A stretch of DNA of 13,720 bases from Ignavibacteriales bacterium (GTDB lineage: Bacteria; Bacteroidota; Ignavibacteria; UBA10030). Each line of letters opens with the position of its first letter. Within the stretch, counting starts at the first letter, position 1. Made by a program: the position numbers and the translations under genes. A model generated the notes under the pieces. That model saw only the letters and a list, made by a program, of their open reading frames with translations. It did not search any database and was not told the origin of the DNA. Positions 868 through 8,331 of this stretch are shown here, piece by piece. The stretch covers positions 1-13,720 of the forward strand of contig JACRFF010000111.1 in assembly GCA_016218005.1 (NCBI GenBank). The letters run 5' to 3'.

Positions 868-1998
868 CTATCGACTCCTGCCGTACTTGTTCAGGAGTTC
901 CTTCACGCGACCGAGCGGCAATGCTTTCGACTCGTGTTGATGATATCCCTTGGTGTCGGTTGCCTTCAACAGAGAATTGTAGATTGCCTCTTCCGTCGCT
1001 TCCACGATTGCTTGGAAGAGAGGAGAGAGGTCGTCTTCCCTGAATCGGAGAGAAGGTTCGGTGCGGTTCGCCGTCGATTTGATGCGGCACTCTGCTGCGG
1101 TAGAGAAGGCAATCACGTAGTCGCCGCTGCCGTGGCTCATAGCAGAGCCGGTTTTTCCTAACGCCAGCAGCGCGCGCCGCGCGAGCCGCTTGAGTTGCGC
1201 TGAATTCAGCGGAGCGTCGGTTGCGGCAACGATCATACACGAGCCGTCGCCATAGTTTAACTGCTCTTTGAACGAGTACTGCCCGAGTTCCTTGCCGATG
1301 GGAACGCCCGCGAGTTCCAACACGCCGCCGTAGTTTGTTTGCACCAACACGCCAACGGTGTATCCCAGCCCGACTGACCCGCCAGACCCGCCCGCCAAAG
1401 CGGTTCGGGCGGGCAGCTGTCGGGCTGGTGGCTGGCTGGCGCCCAATATCGGCGGCAACAATCGTGAGCTTGTGCCGATGCCTCCCTTCCAACCGAAGCA
1501 CACCGTTCCGGCGCCCGCGCCGACGGCTCCTTCCGGCACGGGACCGCGCTGCGCCGACCGAATTGCTTCCACCGCATGAGCGCGCGTAACGTGCCTGCCG
1601 CGAATATCGTTCAACCAGCCGTCGTTGGTTTCTCCTACTACCGGGTTGATGGACCGAACAGTTTCATTTCCCGGCAGTGCGAGCATATAATCGACAACGC
1701 CATTCGCAACTTCCCACACGCTCAAGGTGTTCGTCAGGAGAATCGGCGTTTCGACCTGCCCCAACTCTTCCACCTGCGTGGAACCGATCAGTTTCCCAAA
1801 GCCGTTTCCTACGACAATTGCCGCAGGAACTTTCTCTTGAAAAAGATTGCCGCCGTGCGGAAGAATGGCTGTTACGCCGGTGCGGAAGATGCCGACTTCA
1901 ACGCCAAGATCGCGCAGACGTGGACGCGAACTCTCCTGTCCTAAGCCCGCCGCTGCCGCAAGCAACACCAAACAAGCCGTGTGCGCAATTCGCTTCAC
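868..1998 (-). CDS. Exported P1-family (S58, DmpA-like) aminopeptidase
   Basis: This 376-residue protein belongs to peptidase family S58, whose member DmpA is an L-aminopeptidase/D-amidase-esterase that self-cleaves at a Gly-Ser bond to make alpha and beta chains. The signature is clear. YGDGSCMIVAATDAPL contains the expected cleavage site and nucleophile at G252-S253. Also present are GGIGTSSR (172-179), VGVLVQTNYGG with N222, and HGSGDYVIAFST (289-300). Residues 1-20 form a Sec signal peptide ending ...GLGQ, so the enzyme is probably exported. The start is a GTG whose first bases overlap the TGA stop of the upstream M55 gene (GTGA, 4-nt overlap), suggesting translational coupling; an upstream SD is poor. 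Residues ~186-212, between the GTSSR segment and GYTVGVLVQ, are a low-complexity Pro/Ala/Gly/Arg stretch encoded by a palindromic DNA element (1365-1428), where relatives as I recall have only a few residues. The reading frame is intact. It is probably the last gene of a four-gene operon. Confidence 0.92.
   Translation of the reverse strand: MKRIAHTACLVLLAAAAGLGQESSRPRLRDLGVEVGIFRTGVTAILPHGGNLFQEKVPAAIVVGNGFGKLIGSTQVEELGQVETPILLTNTLSVWEVANGVVDYMLALPGNETVRSINPVVGETNDGWLNDIRGRHVTRAHAVEAIRSAQRGPVPEGAVGAGAGTVCFGWKGGIGTSSRLLPPILGASQPPARQLPARTALAGGSGGSVGLGYTVGVLVQTNYGGVLELAGVPIGKELGQYSFKEQLNYGDGSCMIVAATDAPLNSAQLKRLARRALLALGKTGSAMSHGSGDYVIAFSTAAECRIKSTANRTEPSLRFREDDLSPLFQAIVEATEEAIYNSLLKATDTKGYHQHESKALPLGRVKELLNKYGRSR
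1365..1428. repeat. 64-bp palindromic element inserted in frame in the S58 peptidase gene
   Basis: A perfect 10-bp inverted repeat, CCAGCCCGAC (1365-1374) and GTCGGGCTGG (1419-1428), encloses a second perfect 8-bp repeat, CCCGCCCG (1387-1394) and CGGGCGGG (1406-1413). The region is markedly more GC-rich than its surroundings. On the minus strand it encodes about codons 191-212 of the peptidase, a Pro/Ala/Arg/Gly-rich stretch at a point where the family normally runs almost directly from GTSSR into YTVGVLVQ. Nested palindromes of this kind are typical of REP-like or Rickettsia-palindrome-like elements. No convincing target-site duplication is visible. The palindromes are directly observed; mobility is inferred. 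Confidence 0.75.
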
Positions 1999-2891
1999 GG
2001 TTCAAGGCCGACGTTATAGTTCAAGAGGAAAACCAGAAAATCGGTGACGTCAATTATGTCTTTTCCCATCCAACGAATCGAACGCGAATCGATTCTCTCC
2101 ACCCCCTTGAGGTAGGATAAGACCTCCACAACACGATAGTGCTTGAAGCTCATATCGAGCGCAACCGGAGATTTCACGACATACGGCTTGAAGTCTTTCA
2201 GCCGGCCAAGCGCGGCCTTGACCTTCTGCGCGATCAACGCTTGCGAAGCTTCCGGAGTAAGCGTGTTGGCGGAATGAAAGCCGAGCGACTTTTTGACTTC
2301 TGCCGTCTCAATGTTGCCGAGAGCCGCTTTCACCTCGGCGCACGCAGCGTCGTCTCCGGACATCATCACCACCGGTACGCCGAAATATCCGGCGATGGCT
2401 GCGTTCCACGCCGCTTCGGTTACGACAGTTCCGTTGAGTGCAACACGAGTCAATCGCGCGCTGGAAAAGGTGTGTGCGCGAACGCCCTGCGTGTTGTTGG
2501 TGGATGAATGATAGCCGATGAACATCACTGCATCGAACGTTTGGTCGATGCCCGCCATCATCTCTAATCGTCGCGGCCAGGCGCGAACGACGCGAACGTC
2601 CGGCGGGAACTGGTCGATCAGCAAGCTCTCGCCATTCCCGTGCGAATCGCTGACGAGAATTTCGGCGGCGCCGGATTCTTGTGCCGCACGGATTGCGGCC
2701 AACACTTCCTTCGTCATGAATTGCCGGAAGCGTTCATACTCGAACCCGCCGGGTCCCAATTGATCGTCGCTCACCACGCCGGCGATGCCCTCCATGTCGG
2801 CGGAGATATACACCTTCAACTTTTTCGGCTGGCAAAACACAACCGAAAGAGAAAGAGCCAGACTCATGGCAAAAAGCACGAGACGTTTCAT
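1995..2891 (-). CDS. Exported M55 family D-aminopeptidase (DppA-like)
   Basis: This 298-residue protein is a member of metallopeptidase family M55 (DppA of Bacillus subtilis), zinc enzymes that release N-terminal D-amino acids, classically from D-Ala-D-Ala-type peptides. The zinc and catalytic residues are in place: D32 and E34 in ISADMEGIAGV, H84 in SDSHGNG, H128 in IGYHSS, H140 in GVRAHTF and E159 in NGTVVTEAAWNA. D32, E34, H84 and H128 match the spacing of DppA D8, E10, H60 and H104 exactly after a 24-residue shift. The extra N-terminal residues form a hydrophobic signal peptide (1-20), so unlike cytoplasmic DppA this one is probably periplasmic. The Cys at the end of that segment (VVFC) lacks a good lipobox. 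The start is an ATG preceded by GAGGA at good spacing. The gene lies 18 nt after the histidine kinase gene and overlaps the following S58 gene by 4 nt, so co-transcription is likely. Confidence 0.92.
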   Translation of the reverse strand: MKRLVLFAMSLALSLSVVFCQPKKLKVYISADMEGIAGVVSDDQLGPGGFEYERFRQFMTKEVLAAIRAAQESGAAEILVSDSHGNGESLLIDQFPPDVRVVRAWPRRLEMMAGIDQTFDAVMFIGYHSSTNNTQGVRAHTFSSARLTRVALNGTVVTEAAWNAAIAGYFGVPVVMMSGDDAACAEVKAALGNIETAEVKKSLGFHSANTLTPEASQALIAQKVKAALGRLKDFKPYVVKSPVALDMSFKHYRVVEVLSYLKGVERIDSRSIRWMGKDIIDVTDFLVFLLNYNVGLEP

Positions 2892-2909
2892 CGCATCCTC
2901 AAATCTGTT

Positions 2910-4358
2910 TTAGAATGAAATGGATTTTGGCACCGTGAAGTGAAATGTCGTTCCGCCGTCGGCATCCGACGTAGCCCAAATTTTTCCGCCGTGGGAATCG
3001 ATAACGCGCTTGGCGATGGCGAGGTCAATCCCCGTTCCTTCGTACTTGATGCTATCCGCCAAACGCTTGAACGGCAAGAAGATCGTCTCGAAATGACTCT
3101 CGTCGATGCCGATGCCGTTATCTCGCAGAAAGAATTGGAAATGCGATCGGTCTTTGGCTATCTCCGTTCCGATTTCGACGCGGGGCTCCGGATTGTTGTT
3201 GTACTTGATAGCGTTGGAAATCAAGTTCCTCCACATTTGCGAGAATCGAACCGGATCGCAAGTAACTGCCGGAAGATTGGATTCGATGGCAACGGTTGCG
3301 TTTTGCTCCTTCGCGTAGGTGGCGAGATCCAGCTTGATATCTTCAAGCAGCATCTGCATGGAGACCGGTTCATGGTAGAACTCGATCTTTCCTGCGTGAG
3401 CGAAGTCGAGCATCTCTTGGATCAATTCCGTCATCTGCGTGCAGGTAGAACCGATACGCCGAAGATTTTCACTCGCCTCCGGTTTCAGCTGGCGGCCGTA
3501 GTCGTCAAGAAGCGTCTTGCTGAATTCTTTGATGCTGGTAATGGGGTTTCGCAAGTCGTTTGCAATGATGTTGGCGAAGTTTTCCAGTTCTTCGTAGCGG
3601 CGCTGGATTTCTTCCTTCATGAAATTGAACGCTGCTTCCAGCAAACTGATTTCATCTTCCGCTTCCGATTTGAGATACGAAGAAAAATCTCGCGCGGCGA
3701 CGCGCTCCGCAACGGCCACCAGACTAAGAAGGGGTCCAGAAATTCTGCGCGTCGTCAGCAAGACCGTCGCGATGCTGATGCCCAGCACGATGAATGCCGG
3801 AATCACCGCCATCCAAATTTGGTGCGGCGCAGTTCCTTGAACCGCGGCAATGGCCGGCGCCACGCGGGCATAGCTTTCGTCGATCATGTGGCCGGTTTGG
3901 CCATACATCGCGCTCCCGAAACGATGATGCAACTCTTGCATCAAGCGCAAAGCGTACGGGTCGTTTTTGGCATTGCGCAAGGCAAACACCTGCTTTGCTA
4001 ATTCGTCCAGCCCGAAAAGTGCAGTTTGGATCGAAAGCAACCGCACGCGCTCGGAAGGGTCGATTACGCGCTCTCCGAATTCGGAAAGGTCTGCTTGTGT
4101 CTTCGATAGGAGAGCACGGTAGGAGGTTCTGTAGCTCGTATCGGATGTCAGAACGAAGTCATTGATTGCCATCAGCATCGAACCAAGGTCGCGTTGAAGC
4201 TGGCTGGCTATTTGCAGATGCTGTGCCTGGCGGTCCAAATCTTCGAGGCCGCGCTTATCGATGGTTTGAGAGATGTACGTATCAAGCGCCATGCCTCCCA
4301 TCAAGAACAGAATGATGGCAAACGGAAGCGTAATCTTTTTTGTGATGGAGAATTTCAT
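2910..4358 (-). CDS. Membrane sensor histidine kinase with degenerate H-box and G2-box
   Basis: The protein has 482 residues. TM1 (~10-28) is followed by a mostly helical extracytoplasmic sensor (~30-178, CHASE3/four-helix-bundle-like), TM2 (~181-203), a HAMP linker (~204-258), a HisKA-like dimerisation helix pair (~259-325) and a HATPase_c domain (~365-478). The N-box NLISNAIKYN (N382), G1 box DNGIGI (413-418) and an F-box-like FLPF are intact. At the phospho-accepting position the family reads S-H-D-L-R-x-P, but here it is A-N-D-L-R-N-P: residue 267 is Asn (codon AAC, 3558-3560). The G2 box, normally GTGIGLAI, reads GTGIDLAI, with Asp445 (codon GAC, 3024-3026). Both changes were checked at base level. 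The protein may therefore lack autophosphorylation and act as an allosteric sensor, or a sequencing error is involved. The ATG start has GAGGA upstream. No response regulator lies in the window. It sits between the M19 and M55 peptidase genes, in the same direction. Confidence 0.93.
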   Translation of the reverse strand: MKFSITKKITLPFAIILFLMGGMALDTYISQTIDKRGLEDLDRQAQHLQIASQLQRDLGSMLMAINDFVLTSDTSYRTSYRALLSKTQADLSEFGERVIDPSERVRLLSIQTALFGLDELAKQVFALRNAKNDPYALRLMQELHHRFGSAMYGQTGHMIDESYARVAPAIAAVQGTAPHQIWMAVIPAFIVLGISIATVLLTTRRISGPLLSLVAVAERVAARDFSSYLKSEAEDEISLLEAAFNFMKEEIQRRYEELENFANIIANDLRNPITSIKEFSKTLLDDYGRQLKPEASENLRRIGSTCTQMTELIQEMLDFAHAGKIEFYHEPVSMQMLLEDIKLDLATYAKEQNATVAIESNLPAVTCDPVRFSQMWRNLISNAIKYNNNPEPRVEIGTEIAKDRSHFQFFLRDNGIGIDESHFETIFLPFKRLADSIKYEGTGIDLAIAKRVIDSHGGKIWATSDADGGTTFHFTVPKSISF

Positions 4359-4436
4359 ATGAATCCTCGTTCGACGATAAACAACGTGCGGTGCATTGAC
4401 TTAGCCGACCTTGCCCAGTCCCAACACGACGTACAG

Positions 4437-5669
4437 CTATTGCCGTTGAAGCTGATGCGCCACTTCCTCAACCGTTGACCAGACACGCAGCAGATTCTTG
4501 CCGCAGACCTTTTCAATGTTGGCATCCGAGTAGCCGAGCGCGAGAAGTTCGTAGATGAGATTCGGATACATCGAAACGTCCTTCAATCCGGTCGGCAATG
4601 AATCGCCGACTCCGTCGAAATCCGAGCCAAGCCCTACGTGGTCGATGCCGGCAATCTTCGCAACGTGGTCGATGTGGGCGGCGACATCCTTCACATCGAC
4701 GACGGCGAGCGGATGATGCATCTCATACTCGTGCGCAACGACGCGCCCTGCGGAATCCCGCATGGTCAGATTGCGCGGCCGCAGTTGGGCGTTGATCGAA
4801 TCGCGGCGGTCGCGGTCTTTTTTCTGGTATTCATCGCTGATAAAATCGGAGCCGAAATTTATTTGGATGACGCCCCCCTTTGCCGCCATCGCCTTGATCA
4901 TCTCATCCGACATGTTGCGTTGAAACGTGGGCGTGTATGCGCGGCACGAAGAATGCGACGCGATCAGGGGAGCTTTGCTGAGCGCGAGGACTTGCCAAAA
5001 GGTGTCGTCGGAGACGTGCGAAATATCCACCATGATGCCGAGTCGATTCATCTCAACGACGACTTCCTTGCCAAAGGGACTCAATCCTTTCCACGTATGT
5101 GTTGTATCGTAGGAAGAGTCGCCGATATGGTTATCCTTGCCGTGCGTCAGCGTGATATACCGGATGCCGCGGTCGTAAAAATACTTCAAGTTCTTCAGGT
5201 CGCCTTCAATGGGCGAGCCGTTCTCCATGCCATACGCGAAGCTGATAAGCCCCTTTCCAAACTGTGCCGTAACGTCTGCGGGGGAGCCGGCACGCGCAAA
5301 CTTTTCCGGATGTGCCGTGATGATCGAATCCATCATGCGCATCAGGTCGTCCGCCGTACTCTTGGCGATCTTCTGGGTTTCGTGCTCGGCCGGAACGTAG
5401 ATGGACATAAAAGGAACGTTCAGCCCGCCCTGTTTGGCGCGGGGATAATCAAACTCTCCGGAGAATTTATCTCCATTCTTCGTGTATTGCGTGATGTCTT
5501 CCATTTTATTCCTCAGCCGGTACGGCACGTCGATATGCGTATCAACAATAATGGCTGATTGGGAAAGTTGTTCTGCTTTGTGAAGGATTTGCTCGTTGCG
5601 CTCCACTTGTTTGGTGGCGGCGCATCCCGCAAGAATGAGTAACAGTGTGCCTAGTACGATACGTCTCAT
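4437..5669 (-). CDS. Membrane dipeptidase (M19, renal dipeptidase-like), lipoprotein
   Basis: This 410-residue zinc dipeptidase is of family M19, whose members hydrolyse dipeptides, including those with a C-terminal D-residue. The N-terminus is a lipoprotein signal with lipobox LAGC (Cys16), so the enzyme is membrane anchored outside the cytoplasm. Family motifs are visible: DTHIDVPYRL (zinc ligands H45, D47), the YGMENG segment (E149, bridging ligand), DISHVSD (H218), ASHSSCRAY (H239) and DHVGLGSDFDG (345-353). Length is typical for the bacterial enzymes. The ATG is preceded by GAGGAG six bases upstream. It is the first gene of the minus-strand peptidase block. The 78 nt between it and the kinase gene contain no clear terminator, so read-through is likely. 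The M1 aminopeptidase gene is divergent, across 211 nt. Confidence 0.94.
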   Translation of the reverse strand: MRRIVLGTLLLILAGCAATKQVERNEQILHKAEQLSQSAIIVDTHIDVPYRLRNKMEDITQYTKNGDKFSGEFDYPRAKQGGLNVPFMSIYVPAEHETQKIAKSTADDLMRMMDSIITAHPEKFARAGSPADVTAQFGKGLISFAYGMENGSPIEGDLKNLKYFYDRGIRYITLTHGKDNHIGDSSYDTTHTWKGLSPFGKEVVVEMNRLGIMVDISHVSDDTFWQVLALSKAPLIASHSSCRAYTPTFQRNMSDEMIKAMAAKGGVIQINFGSDFISDEYQKKDRDRRDSINAQLRPRNLTMRDSAGRVVAHEYEMHHPLAVVDVKDVAAHIDHVAKIAGIDHVGLGSDFDGVGDSLPTGLKDVSMYPNLIYELLALGYSDANIEKVCGKNLLRVWSTVEEVAHQLQRQ

Positions 5670-5835: not shown

Positions 5836-5880
5836 AATGTACTGGTAGTGAACACATCATTTCTATCTGAAGGAACCCCC

Positions 5881-8331
5881 ATGAAATTTCTAACTTATTC
5901 TGCCATCCTCTTGTTGTTCGTCTCGACTCTCTTCGGTCAAGAGATCTTTTCCCCGCGCGATGCCGGCGAGACGCCGAACCGAACATACGATGTTCTTCAC
6001 TACAAAATTGAAGCGACATTGTTCGAACAAACGAAATCAGTTGAAGGAAACGCGACAATCACGCTCGTGCCGCTGATGCCGGCGCTCACAACGGCGCGAT
6101 TCAACGCGGGAGAAATGACGATCAAAAAGGTTTCGGTTGGAGGAACGCCGGCGCAATTCCACGCGACATCTTCCGAAGTCTCCGTTGAGCTTGGCAAGAA
6201 ATATTCCCAACGCGACACCGTTCTGGTCTCTATTGCGTATTCGTGCACGCCCAGACTCGGCCTAACCTTCAATGGTCCTGATTCTGCCTATCCGTCGAAG
6301 CGCCTTCAGATCTGGTCGCAAGGCGAAGACACGACAAATCATTTTTGGTTCCCCTGTTACGATTATCCCAACGACAAGGCAACCTCAGAAGTGATCGGGA
6401 CGGTGAACTCCAAGTTTGTGTTTCTCTCCAACGGTAAACTGGTCAACGTAAAGGAAGACAAGAAGAAGGGAACGAAGACGTTTCACTGGAAAGAAGAGAA
6501 GCCACATTCGTCCTACCTTATCATGATCGCGGCAGGTGAGTTTGCAGTATTGAAGGATCGTGTCGGAAAACTTCCGCTCGAATACTATGTTTATCCGAAC
6601 GACACCGCCAACGCGCGCGAAACGTTCCGCCATACGCCGTCGATGATCTCGTTCTTCAATCAAACCATCGGCTTCGACTATCCGTGGGAAAAATATGGAC
6701 AGATCATTTTGCAGGACCATTTTGGCGGAATGGAAAATTCTTCCGCAACAACTCTCTCGGATAACTGGGCGGTGCCGGAAAAACGAGCGCGACTCGACGT
6801 TGACCCGCGAAGCCTGATCGCGCACGAGCTTGCCCACCAGTGGTGGGGCGACGTTGTGACGTGCAAGGATTTTCGCCACGTGTGGCTGAATGAAAGCTTT
6901 GCGAGCTACTACGATCCGCTGTACTTCGAATACGTTTCCGGACGCGACGAATTTGACCTGATGATGTACCAAGGTCAGCAAGCGGGCATTGTGGTGGATA
7001 CCACCAAAGGCAGAAAACCGATCGTGAGTGTCGAGTCGTACGGCGAGAACGTGTATCCGCGAGGCGCTTCGGTGCTGCACATGCTTCGATTCTTGCTCGG
7101 CGACGATCTCTATCACCGCGCCATTAAGCATTATATCACCAAGCATCAGTTTCAGCCGGTTGAAACGAACGATCTGAAAGTTGCCATCGAGGAAGCCACG
7201 GGCCAAAACCTTCAATGGTTCTTCGACCAATGGGTGTATAAAGCGGGGCATCCGAACTTCGAGCTTTCGTATGCGTGGAATGAAACGGCGAAGAATCTTG
7301 CCCTGCGCGTCAAACAGGTTCAGCGGCAAGACAGCCTGACCGGAATCTTCCGCATGCCCGTGGAGATCGAGGCGACCACGGCGACGGGAAGCGAAACGCA
7401 CCGCGTCGGTGTGGTTACGGCCGATACAACGTTCACGCTGCCGTGTTCTCAGAAGCCGATGCTCGTCATTTTCGACAAGGGCAATTGGCTGCTCAAAGAA
7501 TTGAAGTGGGAAAAGCCGGCGGAAGAATGGAGATACCAAGCCGCGTCGGCGAAGAATCCGATCGACAGAATCCGCGCATTGCAGGCGCTTGCGCCGTCGC
7601 TGGAAAACGCATCGGTGATCGCAGACCGATTGCTGCACGATCCGTTTTGGGGAGTGCGTCGTGAAGCGGCAGCTCGCTCCGGTTCGCTCGCTGCGGTCTC
7701 GGACACTATGAAGCCCGCGCTTCGCGCCGCTCTTCTGCAAGCTTCCCATGCTGACACGAAGCCGTCGGTACGCGATGCGGCTGTTTCCGCGCTGCGCTTC
7801 TTCAAAGGCAAAGATGTTGCCGAGTCGCTTCATCGATCGCTGGAAGATTCCAGTTACAATGTCATGTCGAGCGCGCTCCGGTCGCTTGTGCGCGTAGATT
7901 CCGCGAACGCAGCCGCAATATTGCGTGCATATCTCGATTATCCGTCGCGGCTGAACGGTGTCTCCAATACGGCGCTCAGTTCGCTCGCTTCGTTGGATTC
8001 TTCATTTGCGTTGAGCGTTGCCGTGCAGCGAACTGCGTATGGGCAAATAAACTCCACGCGTTATACGTCGTTGGGCATCATCCGCAGGTATGGGCGGGGG
8101 AACGCGCTGGCAATTCAGACGCTTGTGCATCTCCTGACGGACAAGAACGACGCTGTTAAGACCAACGCCGCGCAAATTCTCGGCGATATCGGAGATGCGT
8201 CGGTTATTCCGGCGCTCGAAGCGGTACCGAGCGATGCCGGCGGTGGATTTTATCTTCTCTCCTCGTCAACGGCGAAAGCTGCAAAAGCGAGCATTGAAAA
8301 GATCAAGAAGCGTTCTGAACAGAAGAAATAG
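5881..8331 (+). CDS. Exported M1 family aminopeptidase with C-terminal HEAT-like repeats
   Basis: This is a zinc metallo-aminopeptidase of 816 residues. The ATG at 5881 is chosen over an in-frame ATG at 5848 because GAAGGAA stands just upstream and a signal peptide starts exactly there (MKFLTYSAILLLFVSTLFGQ). The order is an M1 N-terminal beta domain (~30-220), the exopeptidase motif GGMEN (282-286), the zinc site HELAH (315-319) with distal ligand E338 in WLNESF, and the transition-state tyrosine Y392 in VYPRGASVLHML. A beta-sandwich follows (~460-540), then from ~555 to 816 an alpha-helical region of HEAT-like repeats (for example GVRREAAARSGSLA, SVRDAAVSALRFFKG, AVKTNAAQILGDIGDASVIPALE). 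It removes N-terminal residues from peptides, probably in the periplasm or outside the cell. It is divergent from the M19-kinase-M55-S58 block, so a shared role in peptide use is plausible. No catalytic residue is missing. Confidence 0.95.
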   Translation: MKFLTYSAILLLFVSTLFGQEIFSPRDAGETPNRTYDVLHYKIEATLFEQTKSVEGNATITLVPLMPALTTARFNAGEMTIKKVSVGGTPAQFHATSSEVSVELGKKYSQRDTVLVSIAYSCTPRLGLTFNGPDSAYPSKRLQIWSQGEDTTNHFWFPCYDYPNDKATSEVIGTVNSKFVFLSNGKLVNVKEDKKKGTKTFHWKEEKPHSSYLIMIAAGEFAVLKDRVGKLPLEYYVYPNDTANARETFRHTPSMISFFNQTIGFDYPWEKYGQIILQDHFGGMENSSATTLSDNWAVPEKRARLDVDPRSLIAHELAHQWWGDVVTCKDFRHVWLNESFASYYDPLYFEYVSGRDEFDLMMYQGQQAGIVVDTTKGRKPIVSVESYGENVYPRGASVLHMLRFLLGDDLYHRAIKHYITKHQFQPVETNDLKVAIEEATGQNLQWFFDQWVYKAGHPNFELSYAWNETAKNLALRVKQVQRQDSLTGIFRMPVEIEATTATGSETHRVGVVTADTTFTLPCSQKPMLVIFDKGNWLLKELKWEKPAEEWRYQAASAKNPIDRIRALQALAPSLENASVIADRLLHDPFWGVRREAAARSGSLAAVSDTMKPALRAALLQASHADTKPSVRDAAVSALRFFKGKDVAESLHRSLEDSSYNVMSSALRSLVRVDSANAAAILRAYLDYPSRLNGVSNTALSSLASLDSSFALSVAVQRTAYGQINSTRYTSLGIIRRYGRGNALAIQTLVHLLTDKNDAVKTNAAQILGDIGDASVIPALEAVPSDAGGGFYLLSSSTAKAAKASIEKIKKRSEQKK

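Follow-up and report, generated by a model that had tools for sequence, protein, structure and literature searches.

A sensor histidine kinase lacking its phospho-acceptor histidine between peptidase genes of a single Ignavibacteriales genome

A sensor kinase gene without a codon for the phospho-acceptor histidine, lying among peptidase genes, raises the question of whether it encodes a working pseudokinase, is in decay, or owes its appearance to sequence error. We examined such a gene in a 13,720-nucleotide stretch of Ignavibacteriales DNA (contig JACRFF010000111.1, assembly GCA_016218005.1), referred to here as the window. An earlier note on this DNA had raised the idea of a peptidase operon under pseudokinase control and had stated that the gene is not decaying. 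The observation itself is right, while the function of the kinase and the operon logic are unproven and decay is a serious rival, indeed the main one.

The reading frame is free of stops and frameshifts over its 482 codons, and codon-position GC is normal along the entire gene (Table 1). Hydropathy and the predicted model place a helical sensor between two flanking hydrophobic segments; for this protein, Pfam gave matches to 4HB_MCP_1 and CHASE3 below cut-off. The F-box residues are intact. The predicted structure (12 sequences) is a modest one, with a mean pLDDT of 75.9 and a pTM of 0.40; it resembles solved HisKA kinases including HK853, DivL (4q20), and RetS. Beside the G2 box, at residues 432-441, pLDDT fell below 50, so the model says nothing on the geometry at Asp445. 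The earlier description of an intact N-box, G1 box, HAMP domain, frame, and pair of membrane segments was borne out.

Table 1. Positions of the kinase gene, its domains and key codons, and the adjoining peptidase genes in the window.
Feature	Coordinates	Strand	Residues	Details
Sensor histidine kinase ORF, very likely kinase-dead	2910..4358	(-)		482 aa; Pfam
First membrane segment	4278..4340	(-)	~7-27	Hydropathy (near 7-29); helix in predicted model
Second membrane segment	3747..3827	(-)	~178-204	Hydropathy (near 178-206)
HAMP domain	3603..3755	(-)	202-252	Pfam PF00672 above cut-off
DHp (HisKA) domain	3384..3590	(-)	257-325	Pfam PF00512 above cut-off at 258-321
HATPase_c (CA) domain	2925..3257	(-)	368-478	Pfam PF02518 above cut-off
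N-box	3198..3227	(-)	378-387	N378/N382; intact
G1 box	3108..3122	(-)	413-417	DNGIG; intact
Codon 267	3558..3560	(-)	267	AAC; Asn in place of the phospho-acceptor His
Codon 271	3546..3548	(-)	271	Asn at H+4, the phosphatase position in HisKA kinases (PMC3510030)
Codon 278	3525..3527	(-)	278	GAA; Glu at H+11, Gly in 12/12 family members
Codon 445	3024..3026	(-)	445	GAC; Asp in G2 box GTGIDLAI, Gly in 125/125 relatives
Upstream neighbor, peptidase M19 (membrane dipeptidase family)	4437..5669	(-)		Pfam PF01244
Downstream neighbor, peptidase M55 (D-aminopeptidase)	1995..2891	(-)		Pfam PF04951; NCBIfam DppA below cut-off
Second downstream neighbor, peptidase S58	868..1998	(-)		Pfam PF03576; overlaps M55 at 1998/1995

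Both substitutions reported earlier, Asn267 in the H-box and Asp445 in the G2 box, were confirmed in residue and position. Asp445 replaces the third Gly of the GxGxG motif (GTGID), leaving G2 incomplete. All 125 relatives examined (119 listed of 1573, P0121 and P0122 from genome loci, and four added by further search) carry His and Gly at these columns, and the window protein alone has neither. Among close protein-family members, His and Gly were present in 12 of 12, the paralogue from the same genome included. One stretch of P0026 shows Thr at the His column, yet its kinase stretch has His. DHp helix 1 of the window protein holds no alternative His, and the acidic residue at H+1 is kept as Asp268. 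Measured against an active HisKA kinase, the protein has lost the phospho-acceptor His and the complete G2 box and retains the H+1 acid, the N-box, the G1 box, and the DHp-CA fold. A kinase-like fold with essential catalytic residues lost is the general description of a pseudokinase, and the protein answers to it. Judged from these residues, it is very likely unable to autophosphorylate, that is, kinase-dead.

Orthologues sharing the Asn and Asp were not found in 32 genomes of the taxonomic family, with up to 50 candidates scored per genome, nor in a phylum search of 395 genomes, a weak negative with only four candidates scored in each. At 1e-50, a relative turned up in just one of the other 31 genomes of the family, and it has His. 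A scan of genome contigs gave only an unrelated kinase (L018), and there was no near plasmid match. The alignment with homologues shows Asn and Asp as departures from all relatives examined; the search for their conservation in orthologues beside peptidases, asked for in the earlier note, met no close orthologue.

The kinase belongs to a small protein family. A search of 5.8 billion proteins yielded nine same-family relatives, or ten after a profile search (P0002-P0010 and P0123), and P0121 from genome G016 and P0122, the own-genome paralogue on contig C200, bring the other members to 12. P0122 and P0121 share the domain order of the window kinase at 39% and 42% full-length identity, respectively, and both are intact, with His and GTGIGLAI. 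A maximum-likelihood tree groups the window protein with P0122, P0121, and P0005 (support 99/99), on a tip no longer than that of P0005 (0.95 vs 0.96). Given this tree position and the presence of His and Gly in all relatives examined, both losses fall most simply on the window protein's own branch. Per-domain identities were compared over the 11 full-length members, leaving out P0009 and P0010 as incomplete. The mean DHp identity of the window protein was 41.2%, the lowest of all (48.8-57.5% in the other ten). Its CA (51.8%; others 51.3-56.4%), HAMP (54.0%; others 49.5-63.0%), and sensor (23.9%; others 20.6-32.6%) values lay within the range of the others. By these identities, DHp is the domain most diverged from the family, and the divergence of HAMP and CA is ordinary. 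The unusual divergence thus lies in the domain of phospho-acceptance and docking, as would fit a protein that has taken on work without phosphotransfer as well as one freed from constraint.

The gene neighborhood was then compared across genomes. In the window, 78 nt separate the kinase gene from the M19 stop and 18 nt from the M55 start; M19, kinase, M55, and S58 share the minus strand, and the N-termini of the three peptidases resemble export signals by eye. Of the 32 taxonomic-family genomes, 15 carry an M55 match at 1e-40 and 12, own genome included, carry one at 67% identity or more. M19 sits directly beside M55, at 16-168 nt by match ends, in 10 of the 11 other genomes with an M55 orthologue, and these 10 loci have neither room for a kinase between the two genes nor a match to one. 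The eleventh genome, G023, is uninformative, with M19 and M55 at the ends of different contigs. Judged from these loci, the M19-M55 pair is old and the kinase gene was inserted into it, an arrangement met in a single genome. Conserved control of a peptidase operon by a pseudokinase was rejected as a candidate, and the earlier reading of such an operon is unsupported, since the arrangement occurs in one genome and the pair is kinase-free in 10 of 11 relatives. A repeat search of 2600-4700 for insertion scars gave short or diverged repeats, none of them direct repeats flanking the kinase. Foreign composition was not seen either; GC is 0.51-0.56 across the kinase gene, near that of its neighbors. 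The two intact relatives lie elsewhere: P0121, the closest kinase relative in the whole-genome search, is on a different contig from the M19-M55 pair of G016, and P0122 is not on the contig of the own-genome pair. By eye, the G016 kinase has beside it what resembles a PAS-domain gene and a gene for a large secreted protein with repeats, and the C200 paralogue adjoins other genes, so there was no fixed neighbor in the two cases seen.

The spacing between M55 and S58 varies among the 10 loci. By match ends, S58 starts within 90 nt of M55 at three loci (L024-L026), some 360 nt away at L022, and at a distance of roughly 1 kb at five (L020, L021, L027-L029); L023, the tenth, is cut off too early to show it. 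The 1-kb stretch in those five loci holds an opposite-strand ORF of 315-447 codons. More widely, an opposite-strand ORF of 303-447 codons lies in a stretch of some 1 kb ahead of S58 at seven loci (L020, L021, L027-L030, L055), and at seven loci without an M55 orthologue (L038-L042, L044, L051), S58 comes next after M19, no more than 170 nt away. An M1 aminopeptidase gene with C-terminal HEAT repeats, at 5848-8331 of the window, is divergent from the M19 cluster. Downstream of the C200 paralogue, an ORF (L002, 3783-4418) encodes a CFRCH motif, which resembles a heme c site in a sensor.

The partners that the earlier note had proposed to look for have candidates elsewhere in the genome, namely an intact kinase paralogue (C200) and 27 receiver-domain places, 25 of them over cut-off; no response-regulator gene was found in the window by ORF list or Pfam. 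The explanation that we favor, tentatively and with confidence a little short of even, is a kinase-dead sensor that acts on an unlinked response regulator as a phosphatase or a sequestering partner. A sensor kinase of the small HAMP-HisKA-HATPase family would have come to lie between M19 and M55 in the window lineage and would then have lost its kinase chemistry through the changes of His267 to Asn and of Gly445 in G2 to Asp. The kinase-dead protein would go on sensing and dimerizing, and, with Asp268 at H+1 and Asn271 at H+4 retained, it could dephosphorylate or sequester a response regulator encoded elsewhere. From the spacing only, the kinase gene and the three peptidase genes would be transcribed together. 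The gene comes from one metagenome-assembled genome (MAG), in which a conserved dead state is at most a candidate reading; this, the lack of a regulator gene in the window, and Asp445, which may block nucleotide, count against the explanation.

The retained residues bear on a phosphatase role. Of the two positions, H+1 takes part in the kinase reaction of HisKA kinases and H+4 in their phosphatase reaction (PMC3510030). Phosphatase-competent HisKA proteins carry Thr or Asn at H+4, and the window kinase has Asn271; in its family, the position is N, S, T, or A, with Asn in P0121, P0005, and P0007 and Ala in the paralogue P0122. The Asn at H+4 is shared with CrdS, in which it is needed exclusively for phosphatase activity (PMC3510030). 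According to the same source, phospho-His enhances phosphatase activity without being required (said of EnvZ), CrdS H371A merely lowers the activity, and the DHp domain of NtrB or EnvZ alone is a phosphatase. DrBphP is a natural kinase-less phosphatase whose phosphatase activity requires ATP; unlike the window kinase, it keeps its phospho-His and has Glu at H+4, and Asn placed there abolished the activity (PMC8292422). The phospho-acceptor His enhances phosphatase activity (PMC7005713), and HK853 H260A showed diminished activity (PMC5727384). Because the His aids the reaction and DrBphP needs ATP, any phosphatase activity here would probably be weak. In DrBphP, the NtrB and EnvZ DHp domains, and the kinase-dead CrdS mutants, phosphatase occurs without kinase activity, and by analogy the window protein is a putative phosphatase. 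An engineered His-to-Asn allele of NtrB, H139N, is said to keep phosphatase activity; the term H139N had no occurrence among the listed matches of open-license papers.

The docking face is altered. Glu278 at H+11 aligns with HK853 A271, which is among the residues changed in a rewired HK853, according to the title of structure 4jas. With G278E at a regulator-docking position and DHp as the most diverged domain, the protein may touch a response regulator differently or no longer at all. These residues would allow a role as phosphatase only, though with an altered docking face.

Early decay is the rival to which we give the most weight, a substantial possibility. The partner and selection would have been lost, with catalytic missense changes preceding stops and no function left. 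Of 71 positions that do not vary among the other 12 members, 12 are changed in the window protein (G72S, V198T, I220V, G238S, H267N, K270R, G278E, D315E, L316M, A433L, G445D, V449A), the highest count of all 13 members. The runner-up is P0007 (8/67), and the remaining members break between 0 and 5 (P0005, 5/64). Against the pooled others (30/735), the excess gives a Fisher p of about 1e-4, phylogeny ignored, but it is not significant against the equally long-branched P0005 (p 0.13) or against P0007 (p 0.47). The low DHp identity and the standing of the gene as an orphan in a single genome, with no linked regulator, also fit decay. The undamaged frame with normal codon-position GC, the kept N-box, G1 box, HAMP, and membrane segments, and the ordinary divergence of CA and HAMP speak against it. 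The earlier statement that this is not a decaying gene is thus unproven, given the broken invariants and the lowest DHp identity of the 11 full-length members.

A second alternative, which we regard as unlikely, is an allosteric partner that forms a heterodimer with an active kinase, most simply the C200 paralogue P0122, like RocA-CovS or the proposed DivL-CckA. P0122 is intact, and the Ala at its H+4 predicts a weak phosphatase, which would make the two proteins complementary. The ChrS pseudokinase, a laboratory-evolved kinase-dead partner, raises signaling through its paralogue HrrS (PMC9491836). However, DHp identity to P0122 is only 43%, helix-1 docking residues differ, and the two genes, on different contigs, have no physical or genetic link. 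A division of labor between the paralogues, with the C200 protein kinase-only, the window protein phosphatase-only, and peptide turnover setting the "off" arm through the peptidase operon, is a decidedly doubtful idea.

Sequencing or assembly error at both codons, or a contig chimeric at the kinase gene, is very unlikely. The Asn267 and Asp445 codons are each one base from a His or Gly codon, the source is one MAG of 1.72 Mb, 81% complete in 383 contigs, the gene is known from a single sequence (cluster of 1, 1 contig), and none of the relatives examined shares the insertion. Two errors precisely at two hallmark sites would nevertheless be improbable, all the more since other radical changes stand at family-invariant positions (G278E, A433L, G238S) and some of them, such as A433L, require two bases. 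On either side of the kinase gene, M19 and M55 are whole, the genes are oriented and spaced as in an operon, and GC shows no break. The own genome has 14 HisKA places, with His at 11, Asn in the window kinase, and Tyr in a protein on contig C237, one place being unscorable; this does not point to a generally error-ridden MAG. Continued signaling as a kinase, in which the phosphoryl group would go to some other residue or, in trans, to a partner protein, is scarcely credible: the N-box and G1 box are intact, and plant CSK binds ATP despite a lost His and the loss of much of G2, but here both the acceptor and the G2 Gly have gone, DHp helix 1 has no other His, and any substitution of a G1 or G2 Gly inactivates cyanobacterial CSK (PMC5054060).

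The kinase-dead sensor that we favor was next compared with known systems. DivL of Caulobacter crescentus, fairly cited in the earlier note as a His-less precedent, has Tyr550 at the phospho-site (Ala in the Magnetospirillum homologue) and weak ATP binding (PMC4211667). Like DivL, the window kinase is a HisKA-HATPase protein without a phospho-acceptor His, and 4q20 is among both its sequence and its fold matches. DivL has PAS domains, an intact G2 box, conserved homologues, and two known partners, DivK, a regulator bound in its phosphorylated form, and CckA, on which it acts; unlike it, the window kinase has a HAMP domain, a helical sensor flanked by two membrane segments, an Asn at the site, and a broken G2, and it is known from one genome. 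With Asn in place of Tyr and no PAS match in Pfam before DHp, it is classed as a pseudokinase and not as a DivL. Chloroplast CSK of algae and plants likewise combines loss of the His with a modified G2, but its loss is common to green algae and land plants, its ATP binding has been measured, and it is a plastid protein (PMC5054060). RocA of group A Streptococcus, too, is a kinase-like pseudokinase of the membrane, and its output passes through a partner kinase; unlike the window kinase, it keeps a dispensable His and has six putative membrane segments (PMC7028121). Among the listed open-license matches, judged by titles and abstract openings, there was no natural kinase with Asn at the phospho-site, none combining this Asn with Asp in G2, and no paper on Ignavibacteria pseudokinases. 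His-less kinases are already known (DivL, CSK), and the window protein adds an example that is so far one of a kind.

Natural kinase-dead histidine kinases with described roles are few in the open-license literature searched. Here, acceptor and G2 Gly were lost on what is most simply one branch, with an intact paralogue in the same genome, which makes each change testable against a family control. If the dead state is selected, a transmitter, once inserted into an enzyme cluster, would have become a phosphatase or decoy; otherwise, the gene would illustrate the first steps of kinase decay.

Through the window kinase, a second His-less kinase came to light in this bacterial group, with far better conservation. 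On contig C237 of the own genome, the gene at 376-1485 (L111) encodes a REC-HisKA-HATPase protein without a phospho-acceptor His, with the H-box LLYDLHNP. In the best 120 of 382 relatives, own copy included, the His site is Tyr in 101 and Phe in 19; in all 120, the G1 Asp is replaced by Asn, and the receiver Asp and the H+4 Asn are kept. Where relatives of a protein of this genome other than the window kinase bear an organism name, it is Ignavibacteriales, Ignavibacteriae, or Bacteroidota. The protein occurs in 31 of the 32 taxonomic-family genomes, own included, at 67% identity or more, and a gene for an NtrC-like regulator follows directly in 31 of 31 loci, two of them cut by contig ends. 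As judged from this conservation, the C237 type is a conserved pseudokinase-NtrC pair of Ignavibacteriales and, as a selected pseudokinase, far better supported than the window kinase. No paper on it appeared among the open-license matches listed (titles and abstract openings). Should the division between the window protein and P0122 also hold, this Ignavibacteriales lineage would repeatedly build signaling from acceptor-less kinases. At the loci of two genomes from another family of the order, no NtrC-like regulator above 45% identity was seen; the C237-type proteins there, at 42-44% identity, carry Leu at the His site.
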